Shown: piece after piece, positions 5,663-15,920 of the stretch
Layout: the number at the start of each line of letters is the position of its first letter
Position numbering within the stretch: position 1 is the first letter of the stretch
Virus record (IMG/VR): IMGVR_UViG_3300021960_000502
Location: 1-23,972 of that record
Source: a virus
Reading direction: 5' to 3' (one strand)
Length of the DNA: 23,972 bases
Notes under the pieces: generated by a model
The model's database searches: none
What the model saw: the letters and a program-made list of their open reading frames with translations, nothing else
What the model was told of the DNA's origin: nothing
Made by a program: the position numbers and the translations under genes

Positions 5663-6856
5663 TTACCATTCTATTGTGTTTGCCTGACCTTTAAATCCAT
5701 ACCTGTATTCAATAGGGTACATAATTCCATCAAGAAAGTGTGATAACGTTTCTGTCTTTAATATGTGCCCATTTTCTAATGTTGTTAATTCTAAATCTCT
5801 AATTGTGTTCTTACACTTAGGGTTAATAAACAACTTGTGTTTGCCTGTTGCATCTTCCAGCATTCTGTTTAATGCGTTTAATCTGTCCTTCTGCGTTGGG
5901 TTAGCTTTTTTACTAATCACTGTGAATCCTGCGTCTTGTAATATTCTATGATCTGATTTTGTGCTATTGCTTGTTCTTGCTTTCCCTGCTGGATCAGGGT
6001 AAACAGGAAGCCCCTTTGCTTTTTGTTGCATAAGTCTTGCTAATTCAAATGTGTTAGAGTTCTGTAATCCGATCTCATCAAATACATAAATTTCCCCCGC
6101 TGTATTTTCACACATTAGAATTGCTGTCATATAACTTGATACACCAAAGTCAATCCCCCAGAACATACGTGGACTTTTTTCCATTTCCTTCACGTGTATA
6201 TCCCTGTTGAAATTGTAAGCACATCTGTTAGAAGCGGTTTCAAAGCTTGCTTCATATTCCTGTCTAAATGTGCTTGCGTCTAAATTCTTTTTTGCACTTT
6301 CTATTTCGTCAGGCGAAATAAAGCCACCTTCAATTGTAGTAAACTGCCAAGATTTATAGTCTGAATTGTCTAATTGTCCCTTCACATACATATCATAAAA
6401 ATGATTCTGTATACCTGTTGGCGTTCCTACAAATAAAGCCTGTCCCTTTGTTTCAGCTAACATAGGTTGAACGATCTCTCCCCATACATTTGGTTTCATA
6501 TAAGCATATTCGTCTAATACAACTTTATGCAAACTAACACCACGTATGTTATCTTCTTTATCTGCTCCTTTGAGTTCTATTTTAGCCCCATTATTAAGTG
6601 TTACAGATAATTCTGATTCATTAATCTTAACGTCTTTACCGCTGAATACACGCTTTAACAAATTCCAAGCAACCATTTTCGCCTGACGATAACTTGGGTA
6701 TATTATCCACCTTCTTTCGTTCGGCTTCAATTCTTCATTCATTAACCAAATTAATGAAAAGAAAGTTTTGCCCCATCTTCTACCACAAACCAAAATTTTG
6801 TATCTTGATTCATCAAAAAGAATAGACCTTCTTGTGTCGTCAATCCTCCACTTCAT
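5663..6856 (-). CDS. terL: Terminase large subunit (packaging ATPase and nuclease)
   Basis: A 397-residue packaging motor with both domains visible. ATPase: Walker A GRRWGKT at residues 25-31, Walker B VVLDEY with Asp115-Glu116, and coupling motif GTPTG at 144-148. Nuclease (RNase H-like): FWGIDFG with Asp236, YPDPAG with Asp288 and HFLDGIMY with Asp376, giving the three acidic metal ligands. It cuts concatemeric DNA and drives it into the procapsid through the portal. The longer frame opens with TTG at 6865; ATG at 6856 gives MKWRIDDTRR and is preferred, with AAAGG 12 bases upstream, overlapping the small terminase gene by 17 bp. All key residues are present. Confidence 0.95.
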   Translation of the reverse strand: MKWRIDDTRRSILFDESRYKILVCGRRWGKTFFSLIWLMNEELKPNERRWIIYPSYRQAKMVAWNLLKRVFSGKDVKINESELSVTLNNGAKIELKGADKEDNIRGVSLHKVVLDEYAYMKPNVWGEIVQPMLAETKGQALFVGTPTGIQNHFYDMYVKGQLDNSDYKSWQFTTIEGGFISPDEIESAKKNLDASTFRQEYEASFETASNRCAYNFNRDIHVKEMEKSPRMFWGIDFGVSSYMTAILMCENTAGEIYVFDEIGLQNSNTFELARLMQQKAKGLPVYPDPAGKARTSNSTKSDHRILQDAGFTVISKKANPTQKDRLNALNRMLEDATGKHKLFINPKCKNTIRDLELTTLENGHILKTETLSHFLDGIMYPIEYRYGFKGQANTIEW

Positions 6857-7130
6857 TAATGTCAAATACCTTTATTGGCTCGTCATTAACTTCGTGTAAC
6901 CCAATTGTCTGTTTTGGCTTACCTTCTAAACGATCTGCTATGAAGTGTACTGCCCAGCTTTCGCCCTTCACTGCAAATTCAAATACTTTACGCATAATAA
7001 ATTCTAATTTATCTATATCTGCTTCAGGTAGCTGTTCTGATCCTATCTTCTTTAATATTCCATTGATAGTTGTTGTGCCTTTGGGGCGTCCCTTTGGGTT
7101 TCCTGATTGCCCCTTTGTAAATTTTGCCAT
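6840..7130 (-). CDS. Probable terminase small subunit (DUF5681-type)
   Basis: A 96-residue protein starting MAKFTKGQSGNPKGRPKGTT. The GQSGNPKGRPKG signature defines the DUF5681 group, basic N-terminal extensions often found on small-terminase-like phage proteins. The remainder is helical (IDKLEFIMRKVFEFAVKGESWAVHFIADRLEGKPKQT), matching the DNA-recognition part of small terminases. It overlaps terL and directly precedes it, which is the usual arrangement. It would recognise the packaging site and regulate the large subunit. AGGAA precedes the ATG by three bases. The role is inferred from signature plus context. Confidence 0.75.
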   Translation of the reverse strand: MAKFTKGQSGNPKGRPKGTTTINGILKKIGSEQLPEADIDKLEFIMRKVFEFAVKGESWAVHFIADRLEGKPKQTIGLHEVNDEPIKVFDINEVED

Positions 7131-7139
7131 TTCCTGTTA

Positions 7140-7162
7140 ATTCCCTGTTAAAACAGGAATTT
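7140..7162 (-). repeat. Inverted repeat at the junction of modification and packaging genes
   Basis: AATTCC(C)TGTT and AACAGGAATT form an imperfect inverted repeat with a short A-rich centre, spanning the stop codon of the kinase gene and the region just before the small terminase ribosome site. It lacks a clear following U-run in the leftward direction. It may be a weak attenuator or mRNA-processing hairpin separating the two gene blocks, or chance in AT-rich DNA. Confidence 0.3.
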
Positions 7163-7681
7163 TATCACTTTCTTAGCAATTATTCCTGCTTTCTGTTTAT
7201 CCCTTATCTGAATTACTTCCAAATCAGGTTGTAAACGTGTGTTGTTTAATATATTTTGTATTTTTGTGTGTCTTGATTTCTTAAACTTGTCTGACTGCGT
7301 ATCATTTCTGTCTACGTGTCGTTGTTCAAGCGTTTCTTCGTCAAGATCTAAAACAATAAACTTCTGCTCATATTTTTCGTGTAAATCTAATAAATTCTTT
7401 TCTGTAAACAGCCTGTCGCCTTCAAAGAGAACATTATAGTCTGTTATTTGTAAAAACTTCTCATAATCTTTTTGTACTGCCATAGATAGCTTATCTGTAC
7501 CACCAAACGTATCATTTGGTTTATAAATACCTAAAATTGCTACATTATCCGATATATAACCCCTTAACAGCCCATATTGAAAGAATTTCGGCTCATCTTC
7601 TACGTTATTCAGTATTTCTCTTACTAATGTCGTTTTTCCTGAACAAGGAACACCGCCTATTGCTACAACTCGTTTAACCAT
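7148..7681 (-). CDS. P-loop kinase, 5-hydroxymethyluracil DNA kinase-like
   Basis: A 177-residue P-loop kinase. Walker A is GVPCSGKT at residues 10-17. A distinctive GGTDKLSM lies at 60-67, FEGDRLF at 86-92, and a lid-like RHVDRND at 121-127. The GGTD(R/K)LSM and FEGDR motifs are features I associate with the phage 5hmU-DNA kinase family, which phosphorylates the hydroxymethyl of 5-hydroxymethylpyrimidine within DNA before it is replaced by an adduct. Family members in hypermodified-thymine phages sit next to amino acid:DNA transferases, as here: the ATG lies within the last 19 bases of the transferase gene. An ordinary nucleoside or polynucleotide kinase is the alternative, made less likely by the neighbours. 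Confidence 0.78.
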   Translation of the reverse strand: MVKRVVAIGGVPCSGKTTLVREILNNVEDEPKFFQYGLLRGYISDNVAILGIYKPNDTFGGTDKLSMAVQKDYEKFLQITDYNVLFEGDRLFTEKNLLDLHEKYEQKFIVLDLDEETLEQRHVDRNDTQSDKFKKSRHTKIQNILNNTRLQPDLEVIQIRDKQKAGIIAKKVIKFLF

Positions 7682-8538
7682 TTTTTCTCATACGTTTCGT
7701 TTCTAAAATCCCATAATACTTGCCAATTGACACCATCTTGAACAAGATTTTGCATTTTTTCTATTTCTTTACGCTGACGATCTATATAATATCCAACATA
7801 ACGTTTGCCACGTTTGTACTTTTTGTAAGCACATAGCGTTGTTTCAATGTTCCAAATGTTTGTATGCTGTATATCAAGCTGTTCTATTTCTTCTTTCATT
7901 AGTTCAAATTGATATTGTAAATAGCCAAGTTGGTTTTTATTTAACTTCTTTTTTGTTCCATGTGTATCTAATTCATATTGCTCTAAACTATACACTAAAC
8001 CATTTCTACAACTTTCAGCATTCTTTAAGTCTAAATACGTTGGCTCTAGATCAAACCCTGTTAAGACATTTACCATTTCTAAGTAAATAAACATTGTAAA
8101 CCTGCCAAAGTAATGTATTTTCATCAGATCCTGATAACAATTATCATAAGTCATCTGTCTATTCGGCTGTTTCAGGGAATTAAAATATTCTTCTTGTGTT
8201 AAGCCATTAAGCAGCTGTTTGTAAGATTTAAAGATATTAACAAACTCATTAAAAGATTTTACCTTTAATCTGTCTGTTTGGAACACAGTCTTTTGTTTAT
8301 TAGCGTCCCACCAGCGTTGTAATCTGCCTTCATCTACGTTTTCAAAGTCAGGAAATTCATTGTAAATATAATACACAGTCGTTCCTGAATAACAACAAGC
8401 ATATAAAAAAGCTAACCAATAACGTTGTTCAATATTTAATTCAAATCTATCGCTTACATATCTTAAACAATCATTAGCTGGATCAATGTCTTTTGCTTTT
8501 GAAGATTGTATATGATAATCAATGTATTCCTCTACCAT
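7663..8538 (-). CDS. Amino acid:DNA transferase-like protein (alpha-glutamyl/putrescinyl-thymine pyrophosphorylase family)
   Basis: A 291-residue mostly helical protein. Motifs are ACCYSGTTVYYIYNEFPDF at 47-65, YFGRFTMFIYLE at 143-154, KNAESCRNGLVY at 172-183 and ETTLCAYKKYKRGKRYVGYYIDR at 232-254. This set, especially the Cys..Lys-Lys...Gly-Tyr-Tyr-x-Asp-Arg ending, resembles the aGPT-PPlase/AADT families that exchange the (pyro)phosphate on a phosphorylated hydroxymethylpyrimidine in DNA for an amino acid or polyamine. The adjacent hydroxymethyl-DNA kinase would supply its substrate. ATG at 8538 is preferred to the in-frame TTG at 8544; it overlaps the GNAT gene by seven bases. The acceptor amino acid or amine cannot be predicted. 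Confidence 0.72.
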   Translation of the reverse strand: MVEEYIDYHIQSSKAKDIDPANDCLRYVSDRFELNIEQRYWLAFLYACCYSGTTVYYIYNEFPDFENVDEGRLQRWWDANKQKTVFQTDRLKVKSFNEFVNIFKSYKQLLNGLTQEEYFNSLKQPNRQMTYDNCYQDLMKIHYFGRFTMFIYLEMVNVLTGFDLEPTYLDLKNAESCRNGLVYSLEQYELDTHGTKKKLNKNQLGYLQYQFELMKEEIEQLDIQHTNIWNIETTLCAYKKYKRGKRYVGYYIDRQRKEIEKMQNLVQDGVNWQVLWDFRNETYEKKWLNEL

Positions 8539-8939
8539 TGCCAAATATTTTGTGGAATGCCCTTCTTTGTTTGTGCTTTACCTACTTTTGTCATACCAAT
8601 CTTTTCATAAAATTTATTTCCAGCTTCATTATCAAGATTACATTTCAATGTCATAGGTTTAGGTAGATTCTCTACAATAAACTTTGCCACGCCCTGTTTT
8701 TTAAATTCATCTAATACGCCGATCTCATATATTACCCAAGAACTATATTTTTTAGACCAGCCATATCTGACAAATCCTTTATCTTCGCATACTAAAAATT
8801 TATAAGTTGTGTTTTCTGTTAAATATTTGTCCCACACCTGAAATAAATTAAAAGATCCTATGTGTTCTTTTTCTTGTTTGTGTACAGCTTTGATAAGATC
8901 TGCGTCTTTACGCATAGCTCTTTCTAATTTATATTTCAT
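8532..8939 (-). CDS. GNAT-family N-acyltransferase
   Basis: A 135-residue GCN5-related acyltransferase. The core has beta-strand 4 and the pyrophosphate-binding loop as YEIGVLDEFKKQGVAKFIVENL (residues 71-92, with the QxxGxA-like loop KKQGVAK at 80-86), then NLDNEAGNKFYEKIGM (101-116), the classic motif B region. The frame can be extended to a TTG at 8972, but ATG at 8939 has AGCAGGTG about eight bases upstream and begins a natural N-terminus (MKYKLERAMRKDAD), overlapping the amidotransferase gene by 11 bp. In this operon it probably acylates a base adduct or an amine precursor. A Mom-like direct base-modifying role is also possible, since Mu Mom has a GNAT fold. Substrate unknown. Confidence 0.78.
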   Translation of the reverse strand: MKYKLERAMRKDADLIKAVHKQEKEHIGSFNLFQVWDKYLTENTTYKFLVCEDKGFVRYGWSKKYSSWVIYEIGVLDEFKKQGVAKFIVENLPKPMTLKCNLDNEAGNKFYEKIGMTKVGKAQTKKGIPQNIWQW

Positions 8940-9543
8940 ATAATACACCTGCTTTAATAGGCGTTGGCTCAAAAGTATCGTCTACTCTTTTAAAAATATC
9001 TCTTGTAGAAGCTATAAAAGTTGCATTTTCATATTCAAATATCCAGCAAGGTCGCTTTTTATTGCGTATTACATATAAATTTTTGTTTTCATCAAGCATC
9101 ATACCTGCAAAACTACCTTTAATATCGTTTACAAATCTTTCAATTAATGCTTTATCGTTTCCACAGCGTTGAATTAGTATTTCTCCATCATTATCAGTTT
9201 CCATAGTGATATTGTATGCTTTTTCCATTTGGCGTTTTGTTCTCATATCAATCACACCATTAAACACCAATGCCATATCGTCTATATGTATTGGCTGATT
9301 ATTTTTATGGTCTTTATAGTCGCCAGAAGTTGAATATCTATTATGGTAAATAATTTTATCTGATACTGGAAAAGCAACATCATATAATTCTTCATACTTT
9401 CTTGTTATAAGTTTACCCTCTTTAATAAAACTAAAACCATAACTATGTAGCCCACGTACTGAACTTTCAATAATTAAGTTATGTAGTATTGCAAAGTGAC
9501 TAGGTTTTGGATCTTGTGAACTATATCCTACAATTCCGCACAT
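8929..9543 (-). CDS. Stand-alone class II glutamine amidotransferase domain
   Basis: A 204-residue glutaminase domain of the N-terminal nucleophile type. The start MCGIVGY places catalytic Cys2 at the mature N-terminus. RGLHSYGFSF (30-39), HNRYSTSG with Arg69 (67-74), NNQP (81-84) and LVFNGVI with Asn95-Gly96 (92-98) match the conserved glutamine-site and oxyanion residues of the family; the usual His before Asn-Gly is Phe. No synthetase or isomerase domain follows, so ammonia must go to a partner or the domain acts as a transferase or hydrolase. ATG 9543 (not the TTG at 9546) is required for Cys2. It shares one base with the dioxygenase stop (TGATG). The operon suggests a role in building a nitrogen-containing base adduct. 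Confidence 0.83.
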   Translation of the reverse strand: MCGIVGYSSQDPKPSHFAILHNLIIESSVRGLHSYGFSFIKEGKLITRKYEELYDVAFPVSDKIIYHNRYSTSGDYKDHKNNQPIHIDDMALVFNGVIDMRTKRQMEKAYNITMETDNDGEILIQRCGNDKALIERFVNDIKGSFAGMMLDENKNLYVIRNKKRPCWIFEYENATFIASTRDIFKRVDDTFEPTPIKAGVLYEI

Positions 9544-10424
9544 CAATATATACTTGCCCCTGATCTTATTTCACGTTGTTTTGCTATTTCTTGTTCTTCA
9601 ACTGCTGTTCCGCAATGTGTCATATTTTGCCTGTAATACATAACCAAAGAAACTCTTGTAGCTTTTTCGTCAATCTTTGTAATTGGCGTATTGCCATGCC
9701 ATTGGTGCACATCACACAATAACAGATCGCAGTTTTGCATATCAAATGCTACTGCCCATTGTGGAATAACAAAATAACCGCCTTCATATCTACCTTCACG
9801 TAATACAACTAAATTCCCAAAACCTTTATCAAAGTCGCCTTTATCTGTATGCACTGCTGTTTGCCAATTCTTATTCACTGTGACTGTGGTAAATGCAGTA
9901 TCTTTAATAACAAAATCCTGTGCAGTTTCATCTGCTACTTTTCGTTGCAATTGGTATTCGTCTGGCATAAGATCGCTATATTGATTGTCTACAAACTTAA
10001 TAATACCATACGCTTTTTTAAATTTCTCAAATTCTTTTTGATTAAAAGCAGTTTGTCTGCAATAAGGAAACCTGACATTTCTATCAAAATATCCTATAAT
10101 TCCGCTATTAACTTGATCTGCTCCATTAGTGTTTGAAACAGATCCATCTTTTTTTAATCTTTTGCTTCCTGCTGTTCCTGATGCTTTGTTCCTATTGTTG
10201 GTTGCTGTCGCTGCAGCCTTTAAATTGTCATAAGCAGTTTTAGCAATATTAGCAGGTATTACATTTTTTCTAAATTTTGCTAATACTTTACCTGATTCTT
10301 TATCGTATACGTCTGCGTCATAGTCTACTAAAATCTTATAACTTGTGTCGTCTAATAATGCTCCTGCTAATTTAGCAGCTGACTTATTATCTAATACAGG
10401 CTCTAAATGTATTTCTCTAACCAT
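9543..10424 (-). CDS. TET/JBP-family 2-oxoglutarate and Fe(II)-dependent DNA dioxygenase
   Basis: A 293-residue enzyme. The double-stranded beta-helix core is C-terminal: WQTAVHTDKGD gives the HxD pair His192/Asp194, CDVHQWHGNTPI the distal His (His243 in HGN, or His240), and ATRVSLVMYY supplies Arg257 for 2-oxoglutarate. GNLVVLREGRYEGGYFVIPQWAVAFDMQ between them matches the TET/JBP core, as does the late W-H-G-N. The N-terminal 65 residues form a small separate unit, then a low-complexity Ala/Thr/Asn/Ser/Gly linker (about 71-108). The enzyme would oxidise the methyl of thymine or 5-methylcytosine in DNA to hydroxymethyl. ATG 10424 is preferred over TTG 10427, overlapping the ParB-like gene by eight bases. 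Confidence 0.83.
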   Translation of the reverse strand: MVREIHLEPVLDNKSAAKLAGALLDDTSYKILVDYDADVYDKESGKVLAKFRKNVIPANIAKTAYDNLKAAATATNNRNKASGTAGSKRLKKDGSVSNTNGADQVNSGIIGYFDRNVRFPYCRQTAFNQKEFEKFKKAYGIIKFVDNQYSDLMPDEYQLQRKVADETAQDFVIKDTAFTTVTVNKNWQTAVHTDKGDFDKGFGNLVVLREGRYEGGYFVIPQWAVAFDMQNCDLLLCDVHQWHGNTPITKIDEKATRVSLVMYYRQNMTHCGTAVEEQEIAKQREIRSGASIY

Positions 10425-11013
10425 CAATTAAAAATTCCAATGCTTTAAACACAGTGTCTGTTACATTGTCTGTGCCAAACTTTTCTCTTAATTCTAATTC
10501 CATTTTCTTGAATACAGGCTCTGTTTCATCATTTAAAAATAATTGAATCATACGTACGTGGCTTGCTTCTGCGTCCTCAGGGTATTCAATTGTTTCATTG
10601 TAATTGTTTGTTACGTCAAACGTTAAATTGCTGTCTACGCCCAATTCTTGTTCTGCGAAACCCCAATCAAGCAATTCGTCTGTGTCAAAATTGTTTGCCA
10701 ACATATCCCAATCCCACTCTCCTGTGTTCTTGTTTAATCTGACATTTAATTCTTTTTCTTGTTCTTCATTAAGATCTAATTCTACGCAGGGTACTTTTTC
10801 AATCCCTAACATTGTAGCGACTTTCACTCTTTGGTGTCCGCCGATAATAATGTTTTTTCTTGCTTTGTTTTTATTCACAAGCACAGGATCAACAAAACCA
10901 AATTTTTGTAAAGAGTCTGTTAATTCTTTATGTTGTTTTTCTGTTAATTGTCTTGGGTTGTAATCTGCCTGTTTAAGATCTCTAATGTTTTTTTCAATAA
11001 TCTTCATCATCAT
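10417..11013 (-). CDS. ParB-like (ParB/Srx fold) DNA-associated protein
   Basis: A 198-residue protein with an N-terminal ParB/sulfiredoxin-like domain: DYNPRQLTEKQHKELTDSL (17-35), FGFVDPVLVN (38-47), then IIIGGHQRVKVATMLG (55-70), where GGHQR is the nucleotide-binding/catalytic box. It continues with KVPCVELDLNEEQEKELNVRLNKN, the usual second half of phage ParB-like proteins. The C-terminal 80 residues are acidic and unassigned. Such domains are often coupled to DNA methyltransferases and other base modifiers in phages, and may bind CTP or DNA or hydrolyse nucleotides. It is the first well-conserved gene of the modification operon. Three consecutive ATG codons at its start leave the exact initiation uncertain by one or two residues. 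Confidence 0.86.
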   Translation of the reverse strand: MMMKIIEKNIRDLKQADYNPRQLTEKQHKELTDSLQKFGFVDPVLVNKNKARKNIIIGGHQRVKVATMLGIEKVPCVELDLNEEQEKELNVRLNKNTGEWDWDMLANNFDTDELLDWGFAEQELGVDSNLTFDVTNNYNETIEYPEDAEASHVRMIQLFLNDETEPVFKKMELELREKFGTDNVTDTVFKALEFLIDG

Positions 11014-11230
11014 ATTCTATGCTGTAATTTTCCTCATCAAATGTTGAATGTGCGTCCCAATCTTCAGGCGGTGTATTTTCTTCGTCGCCATTTGGATCAG
11101 CAAGAACAATATTTTCTATACTGCCTTGACTAAATCTTCGCATATTCTTAGTTCTGTTAAATGCTTCGTGTCCTACTTCCGCATTAGCAGTTTCTTGATC
11201 TATTTGTTTAAGTAGTTTTTCAATATCCAT
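10994..11230 (-). CDS. Small acidic protein of unknown function
   Basis: A 78-residue protein with a helical N-terminus (MDIEKLLKQIDQETANAEVG) and a very acidic tail (EENTPPEDWDAHSTFDEENYSIEYDDEDY). I do not recognise the family. It is the first gene after the terminator at about 11336-11374, so it opens the leftward modification operon, and it overlaps the ParB-like gene by 20 bp. No convincing Shine-Dalgarno site precedes the ATG; the upstream sequence is TATATATAG. Its acid-rich tail could mimic DNA or bind a basic partner, but this is speculation. Confidence 0.7.
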   Translation of the reverse strand: MDIEKLLKQIDQETANAEVGHEAFNRTKNMRRFSQGSIENIVLADPNGDEENTPPEDWDAHSTFDEENYSIEYDDEDY

Positions 11231-15120: not shown

Positions 15121-15420
15121 TTATTCCTCATTACTTAACATTTCACATAAATGCTCATTGACTTCATCAAGATCAATTTTTTTATCAGCCCAAAGTACGC
15201 CATCAGGTGTTTTTGCTTTGTATAAATCACAATGCAACAACCAAGCTTCGTAAATTGTTTTTAAAGGTCTTAATTTAGTATCTGAGCCTGCTCTTGTATT
15301 GTATATACTTTTTAAAGAATTATAAAATATTGGATCATTATTAATCCAAAGCACAACATTCCAAGTTTCGTAATTCTTCCAACCATTGTATTCATTTTTT
15401 CTATATACTAATTCGTTCAT
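15121..15420 (-). CDS. Phage protein with NYETWNVVLWI signature
   Basis: A 99-residue protein whose N-terminus NGWKNYETWNVVLWINNDP is a signature I associate with a widespread phage/plasmid family of unknown function (DUF7249-like). The rest is helical and acidic towards the end (DLDEVNEHLCEMLSNEE). It overlaps the methyltransferase gene by four bases (ATGA) and has GGAGCG eight bases upstream. No catalytic motif is evident. Confidence 0.65.
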   Translation of the reverse strand: MNELVYRKNEYNGWKNYETWNVVLWINNDPIFYNSLKSIYNTRAGSDTKLRPLKTIYEAWLLHCDLYKAKTPDGVLWADKKIDLDEVNEHLCEMLSNEE

Positions 15421-15920
15421 ATTTTCGCTCCATTAATTAATGTTAATATTTGTTCTTCTGTGATAAAGTCTTTGCGATTTAATTTTTTATTACCCCACCA
15501 TACTACTATCATACTAGGAAAAGGTGCAGGTGCAAGTTTTTCCCCACCTTCAAACTTTATTCTTCCTTTAATGAACACCATTGATGCTTTATTGTATATA
15601 TAATTATGAAACCATTTTGTATCAGTTCTTGCAGGTAATAATGCAATAGTAGTACTGCCATTTATTTCCCATTGTTCGTATGCTTTTTCAACAAACTTTG
15701 AAATTTCCCTTCCATATGGAGGGTTCATAAAGTTGCAAGTTTCCCAATTTTTATTTAAACAAGAATTTTCTTTTGTATAATATTTAGGTAATAATGCATT
15801 TTTTTCATCAGAACAAACATCTAAATCGAATTTAAAATGATTGTGTAATGCATTAAATAACCATTTCGGAGTTCGCCAATCGTCTTTATTAGAACTAAAC
15901 AAACCTTTATTAACACTCAT
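15417..15920 (-). CDS. Phage DNA N6-adenine methyltransferase (Dam-like)
   Basis: A 167-residue methyltransferase of the compact phage Dam type. DDWRTPKWLFNALHNHFKFDLDVCSDEKNALLPKYYT (13-49) is the characteristic N-terminal block, FMNPPYG at 64-70 the catalytic NPPY motif IV for N6-adenine, and ALLPARTDTKWFHNYI and APAPFPSMIVVWW the remaining core. It would methylate adenines in phage DNA for restriction protection or replication control. Recognition sequence unknown; GATC, the usual target of the type, occurs often in this DNA. It modifies adenine and does not supply 5-methylcytosine to the TET-like enzyme. AAAGGAG lies nine bases before the ATG. Confidence 0.87.
   Translation of the reverse strand: MSVNKGLFSSNKDDWRTPKWLFNALHNHFKFDLDVCSDEKNALLPKYYTKENSCLNKNWETCNFMNPPYGREISKFVEKAYEQWEINGSTTIALLPARTDTKWFHNYIYNKASMVFIKGRIKFEGGEKLAPAPFPSMIVVWWGNKKLNRKDFITEEQILTLINGAKI

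Follow-up and report, generated by a model that had tools for sequence, protein, structure and literature searches.

The DNA analysed here, which we call the window, is the entire IMG/VR virus record IMGVR_UViG_3300021960_000502, a linear fragment of 23,972 bases. We focused on six leftward open reading frames (ORFs) at 7148-11013 that form a putative DNA hypermodification operon and encode, in order, a ParB-like protein, a TET/JBP-type dioxygenase (TET), a class II glutaminase, a GNAT acyltransferase, an ADDT-family transferase (ADDT) and a P-loop kinase, followed by terminase genes (Table 1). Neighbouring ORFs overlap by 4-44 nt when counted from the first possible start codon; in several genes the listed start is a TTG that is followed within one to a few codons by an ATG, and for several genes this internal ATG is probably the true start, which shortens the overlaps. 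An initial annotation of this DNA had described a leftward six-gene operon with short overlaps and a set of motifs; all of this was confirmed, and the ATG starts give roughly the overlaps that it quoted.

Table 1. Genes of the predicted hypermodification operon and adjoining features in the window.
Feature	Position	Strand	Evidence
ParB-N-domain protein, first cassette gene	10417..11013	-	ParB_N 1.2e-9
TET/JBP-type 2OG-Fe(II) dioxygenase, predicted to hydroxylate thymine (5-methyl-U) in DNA	9543..10427	-	Tet_JBP 3.2e-26
Free-standing glutaminase domain of the class II glutamine amidotransferases, predicted to supply the ADDT with ammonia	8929..9546	-	GATase_7 1.2e-9
GNAT acyltransferase, predicted N-acylation of new amine, optional	8532..8972	-	Acetyltransf_10 8.6e-7
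ADDT-family transferase, predicted phosphate displacement on 5-phosphomethyl-dU in DNA	7663..8544	-	PF18724 1.1e-19
P-loop kinase, predicted phage 5-hmdU DNA kinase type	7148..7681	-	phrog_800 4.9e-14
First gene beyond the operon, small DUF5681 protein that is likely the terminase small subunit	6840..7130	-	DUF5681 1e-14; 17-nt gap
Terminase large subunit, after cassette in window and relatives	5663..6865	-	Terminase_6N 5.2e-12, phrog_2 3.3e-37
Small acidic ORF overlapping ParB start	10994..11230	-	no Pfam or PHROG match; only in close relatives

Families were assigned with Pfam models at their curated cut-offs and with PHROG profiles. Matches over the Pfam cut-offs were obtained for Tet_JBP, ADDT, GATase_7, ParB_N and GNAT, and the P-loop models for the kinase fell just under (AAA_18, 2e-6). 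Both the HxD...H iron triad and the Arg that binds 2-oxoglutarate (2OG) were present in the TET, and H193, D195, H244 and R258 (numbering of the 294-aa listing) were invariant across 17 diverse phage TETs; the protein is a predicted oxidiser of 5-methylpyrimidine in DNA. Translation probably starts at its second codon, an ATG, and counted from there the HTD, HGN and Arg motifs carry the numbers given in the initial annotation. The glutaminase matched GATase_7 and GATase_6 at about 1e-9 each; an ATG one codon in, likely its start, gives MCGIVGY, with Cys at position 2 directly behind the initiator Met. The site of class II amidotransferases (N-terminal Cys, Arg, Asn-Gly, Asp) was complete, and C3, R70, N96, G97 and D120 were invariant among members 42-46% identical. 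This 205-aa protein aligned solely to the N-terminal glutaminase part of the GlmS, PurF and AsnB models, and no linked synthase or acceptor domain was found; since any acceptor would have to lie on another protein, it was classed as no more than a glutaminase domain. A GlmS-like glutaminase, about 25-30% identical to that of the window, is common in Pseudomonas phages of the LUZ24 and PaP3 types.

The transferase scored 71.5 bits against the ADDT model (cut-off 26.2). A match to aGPT-Pplase3 (1.7e-4) was under its cut-off and was discounted in view of the much better ADDT score. Searches of PDB sequences with the TET, the ADDT, the glutaminase and an ADDT profile returned no match, and fold comparison alone was successful for the ADDT. 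Its AlphaFold2 (AF2) model had a predicted local distance difference test score (pLDDT) of 94.1, and Foldseek gave a high probability solely for PaMx11 gp46/PUGT. VIA-align ranked two entries of the PaMx11 5-phosphomethyl-deoxyuridine (5-PmdU) glycinyltransferase first, with Z scores of 19.6 (251 residues aligned to 8z2m) and 19.0, followed by a queuine-salvage enzyme (10.6) and 8-oxoguanine DNA glycosylases (8.5). The window ADDT is predicted to displace the phosphate of 5-phosphomethyl-deoxyuridine (5-phosphomethyl-dU) in DNA, for which we propose ammonia as the nucleophile. Of the earlier description as AADT/aGPT-PPlase-like, the transferase part holds, with PF18724 and the PUGT fold of PaMx11 behind it; the protein is not an aGPT-PPlase proper.

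The kinase contains GGTDKLSM and FEGDR, and residues G61, T62, D63, L65, M67, F86-E87-G88 and R90 were at least 95% conserved. It scored 20.4 bits with Ploopntkinase3 (cut-off 27); the kinase of Pseudomonas phage Ab18 is itself under the HMUDK_HMUD1 cut-off. The matching profile, phrog_800, also takes Ab18 ORF12 (5.6e-32) and the Ploopntkinase3 protein gp4 of LittleMunchkin (1.6e-30), both P-loop kinases inside modification clusters, and the Ab18 kinase adjoins genes for HMUDK_hel and thymidylate synthase (TS). Through the shared phrog_800, sequence places the window kinase in a predicted family of phage 5-hydroxymethyl-dU (5-hmdU) DNA kinases. The label of this profile, terminase small subunit, was rejected for the window kinase because the members examined are P-loop kinases in modification clusters, and the name was likely misassigned on the strength of gene neighbourhood. 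The hidden Markov model of the GNAT found the Ab18 acetyltransferase at 9e-13. Profile searches, which the initial annotation had set beforehand as its test, thus bore out the ParB-like, TET/JBP, Cys2 class II amidotransferase, GNAT and kinase families, and the transferase and kinase fell in the expected rather than in unrelated families.

Conservation of the operon was assessed using three viral scans, with the TET, the ADDT and the glutaminase, and one scan with a flavoprotein. These yielded 159 loci with module genes; merging of loci that share a gene left 79, in 51 of which the contig extends past both ends of the operon. ADDT and glutaminase occurred together in 44 of 44 full dereplicated loci, a count that, like the other co-occurrences, is conditioned on the way the loci were fetched; in complete loci the scan by ADDT always found the glutaminase and the scan by glutaminase always the ADDT. 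All 44 also carry a TET and a kinase, of the window type in 34 and of a second P-loop type in 10, and ADDT, TET and a kinase were the only partners found in every complete viral glutaminase locus. A GNAT was present in 27/44 and a ParB in 41/44, where its gene precedes the TET or the kinase; targeting, adaptor and CTP switch are candidate roles for this protein. A second order, ParB-kinase2-glutaminase-ADDT-TET, was seen in ten loci. Chance assembly of the module was dismissed because gene order recurs in dozens of distinct phages, and the core of the operon is inherited as a unit. Families, motifs and these 44 loci together support the proposal, made in the initial annotation, of a DNA hypermodification operon started by a TET and driven by a kinase and an ADDT.

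Three full loci (six contigs in all) had the arrangement ParB-TET-ADDT2-FAD protein-kinase, without glutaminase or GNAT, and the flavoprotein and the glutaminase were mutually exclusive in the few loci seen. In the ADDT tree the glutaminase-coupled set lay on one side of a branch (73/82) and the FAD-coupled set grouped with Ab18 (86/85), which we took as moderate evidence only because the branches are long. Relatives of the FAD protein in the phage collection were confined to Pseudomonas phages, Ab18 and Ab19 among them. In work by Lee et al. from 2022, flavin-dependent lyases and acetyltransferases are said to work on an amino acid adduct. The Ab18 cluster comprises an ADDT, a DAO-type FAD protein, a GNAT, a kinase, HMUDK_hel and TS, and Ab18 shares the genus Abidjanvirus with PaMx11, which the literature (Wen et al.) ties to 5-NmdU. 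Furthermore, 5-aminomethyluracil is listed among natural phage bases (PMC11550810). An aminomethyl group is therefore the probable end point of the flavoprotein route, and the gene swap suggests that the glutaminase occupies the place held by the flavoprotein in sister operons of a PaMx11-like aminomethyl pathway.

We then considered which base is modified. The AF2 model of the TET (pLDDT 65) was too poor to judge a thymine against a cytosine pocket, so base specificity was read from genomics alone. The nearest relative, G001, aligns to the larger part of the window with 85-95% nucleotide identity, and a 14-kb stretch that includes the operon is 94.6% identical. Since it has an exact 98-bp repeat at its ends and the window reads across the junction, the G001 genome is circular and complete at about 32.7 kb; a second relative, G020, carries the same kind of end repeat and is likewise complete and circular. 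No C5-methyltransferase (PF00145) was found in the window, a fragment, nor in the complete G001 and G020, and a thymidylate synthase (PF00303) was missing from the window record and from 48 relatives, these two among them. Among ten cultured phages with complete genomes and a related TET, nine also have no PF00145, the exception being Melnitz, whose TET is distant (23% identical). Thymidylate synthase genes are carried by other ADDT phages, namely Ab18, LysYB1 and phiA8-29. From these patterns thymine is favoured as the substrate.

Considering the genes together, we see about an even chance that the operon directs post-replicative hypermodification of thymine to an acylated 5-aminomethyl-dU. 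The TET would hydroxylate the thymine methyl group in phage DNA to give 5-hmdU, which the kinase would convert to 5-phosphomethyl-dU. The class II glutaminase would hydrolyse glutamine and pass ammonia to the ADDT, which would use it to displace the phosphate, yielding 5-aminomethyl-dU, and the GNAT would acylate the amine, most likely to 5-acetylaminomethyl-dU. DNA modified in this way would most likely be shielded from host nucleases. A predicted hydroxymethyluracil (hmU) source, an hmU kinase by family and an ADDT-type transferase in one operon make up the gene content of a thymidine hypermodification pathway. A TS-family dUMP hydroxymethylase, a feature of the classical pre-replicative form, is absent (no PF00303 in the window and 48 relatives), and for this reason we class the operon as a variant. 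No synthetase, ATP-grasp or adenylating domain was detected either among the proteins of the operon or as a fusion partner of the glutaminase (Pfam; GlmS, PurF and AsnB models), so the glutaminase would need a pre-activated acceptor, which phosphomethyl-dU would be. The bolder form of the proposal, to which we give a little short of an even chance, is that glutaminase and ADDT constitute a glutamine-dependent amidotransferase with a DNA acceptor, aminating TET-hydroxylated thymine directly; if true, it would establish both a phage thymine-specific TET and enzymatic DNA amination by glutamine.

Several points weigh against this pathway. We know of no precedent for the use of ammonia by an ADDT; enzymes of this type are said to have been described by Lee et al. 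in 2022 as transferring amino acids, and the phage TETs reportedly shown to be active by Burke et al. in 2021 act on 5-methylcytosine (5mC). The PDB title of 8z2m likewise describes an ADDT-type enzyme as an amino-acid transferase. The clade of ADDTs coupled to the class II glutaminase (GATII) has long branches and just moderate support, and no cultured phage with exactly this gene set was found. PF00145 C5-methyltransferases occur elsewhere in 4/49 related records, and that of Melnitz adjoins the TET and kinase, so cytosine use exists nearby. Lastly, gut phages on contigs of a Bacteroidales metagenome-assembled genome (MAG; L189:6372-10121, and L190 and L191:4520-10171) carry ParB-glutaminase-ADDT-kinase-GNAT followed by a radical S-adenosylmethionine (SAM) protein, with a SAM synthetase upstream in L190 and L191. 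No TET was found in these operons or elsewhere in the MAG, so that glutaminase, ADDT and kinase stay together there without one, an arrangement that the scheme leaves unexplained; a thymidylate synthase, sought as a TET substitute, was present as one divergent copy on contig L192 of the same MAG, which may or may not belong with L190 or L191. This phage-like contig also has a reverse-transcriptase-like ORF (L192:5284-6924), possibly a diversity-generating retroelement.

The alternative that survives best, although we regard it as unlikely, shares the pathway up to phosphomethyl-dU, to which the ADDT would attach an amino acid (glycine, serine or glutamate-like), with the class II domain and the GNAT tailoring the adduct, for example by amidation. 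Both the family name of the ADDT and the PaMx11 structure denote amino-acid transferases, and the coupling of GATII and ADDT is compatible with either reading. The initial annotation had proposed such a scheme, in which the phosphate is exchanged for an amino acid or amine, with amidation or acylation to follow. However, amidation of a carboxylate needs ATP activation, which nothing in the operon offers, making an amino acid that is then amidated unlikely; the glutaminase is moreover locked to the ADDT in 44/44 loci, and a flavoprotein substitutes for it in sister operons. Direct transfer of glutamine-derived ammonia would thus be simpler than amidation.

Less probable still, and in our view quite unlikely, is that the substrate is 5mC, made by the host or by an unrecognised phage enzyme, and the final base an aminomethyl-cytosine derivative. 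This would agree with the reported activity of characterised phage TETs on 5mC, with the Melnitz gene set and the 4/49 records, and with the TET of P12024L, which is 45-47% identical and paired with a TAGT glycosyltransferase. It is opposed by the absence of PF00145 from both complete relatives and from nine cultured TET phages, by the distance of the Melnitz TET, and by the thymidylate synthase genes of several TET-less ADDT phages, which fit hmU. A separate observation concerns Methylophilales phage Melnitz-2 (L107:4010-8090), in which genes for an HhaI-like C5-methyltransferase, a TET, a 427-aa protein and a relative of the hmdU kinase follow one another, a possible phosphorylation route on hydroxymethylcytosine. 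That the genes are ordinary, act outside DNA (on RNA or in nucleotide metabolism) or form a defunct operon is very improbable: the folds of the GNAT, the P-loop kinase and the glutaminase are promiscuous and the Pfam matches of the first two are weak, but widely diverged members keep the catalytic residues invariant, the core passes down as one unit, the Tet_JBP and ADDT families modify DNA, and the solved ADDT homologue acts on a modified deoxyuridine.

The proposed thymine pathway was compared with known systems. PaMx11/Ab18-type phages share the ADDT fold, the kinase family, the GNAT and a predicted aminomethyl- or acylaminomethyl-dU product with the window; they make hmU by a TS-type enzyme at the nucleotide level rather than by a TET on DNA, use glycine and a flavoprotein where the window has the glutaminase, and have HMUDK_hel, no protein of which was found in the window operon. 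Actinophage cassettes (LittleMunchkin; Tonitrus, PMC11955845) likewise hold ParB, TET, an ADDT-type transferase and a kinase in one block by the terminase, but lack the glutaminase, have an ADDT in the clade of Ab18 and a TET only about 20-22% identical. Cassettes that combine ParB and TET with a kinase and a transferase of the pyrophosphorylase or ADDT type have already been published as predictions (Tonitrus, PMC11955845). Ackermannviridae of the ViI and CBA120 type, which have modified thymidine (PMC11721090; 5-NeOmdU), share the ADDT family (PF18724 1.9e-57 in CBA120) and differ in an hmU precursor made without TET, in other tailoring and in an ADDT of another clade. Phage cytosine systems of TET, C5-methyltransferase and TAGT, and the TET and TAGT of P12024L, are alike in TET family and cassette position, with a glycosyltransferase where the window has kinase, ADDT and glutaminase. 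MnmEG modifies C5 of tRNA uridine with either ammonium, which gives aminomethyl, or glycine, which gives carboxymethylaminomethyl (PMC3936742); it offers only a works-like parallel in this choice, being unrelated enzymes that act on the tRNA wobble uridine.

To our knowledge, the thymidine hypermodifications described so far start from hmU formed in the nucleotide pool, and an amino acid or amine supplies their nitrogen. If the proposed pathway is true, it would depart from this at both points, working on finished DNA and with glutamine as the nitrogen source, and would need no more than five enzymes; it would also provide a compact gene set to install a reactive primary amine on DNA thymine. 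The operon also bears on whether phage TETs oxidise thymine, on the base carried by the numerous marine and freshwater phages that have TET, kinase and ADDT, and on whether a partner can switch ADDT enzymes from amino acids to ammonia. No description of the glutaminase coupling was found in the literature searched, several key papers lying outside that search. Most likely, what is new here is the coupling of a glutaminase to ParB-TET-ADDT-kinase, the rest being a known kind of thymidine hypermodification, rewired. The initial annotation put the case for a possibly new final base too strongly, since 5-aminomethyl-dU is already a reported phage base (PMC11550810).

Cultured phages with related genes were also noted. 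P12024L and HTVC112P are small complete marine phages with related TETs; at the same place P12024L (L104) has a TAGT and an N6/N4 methyltransferase, and HTVC112P (L105) an FkbM methyltransferase. Comparison of the two suggests that the site downstream of the TET may be a plug-in site for tailoring genes. Caulobacter phage Cr30 (L106, 6789-15682), a culturable test case, carries a TET, an ADDT and a kinase whose annotation reads terminase small subunit, with cysteine dioxygenase and inositol-1-phosphate synthase among the nearby annotations. Within the window, the small acidic ORF is possibly the first gene of the transcription unit. Outside the operon, a Dam-type N6-adenine methyltransferase (PF05869, 3e-32) is encoded at 15417-15920, and N6-methyladenine may be a second, independent mark on the phage DNA.

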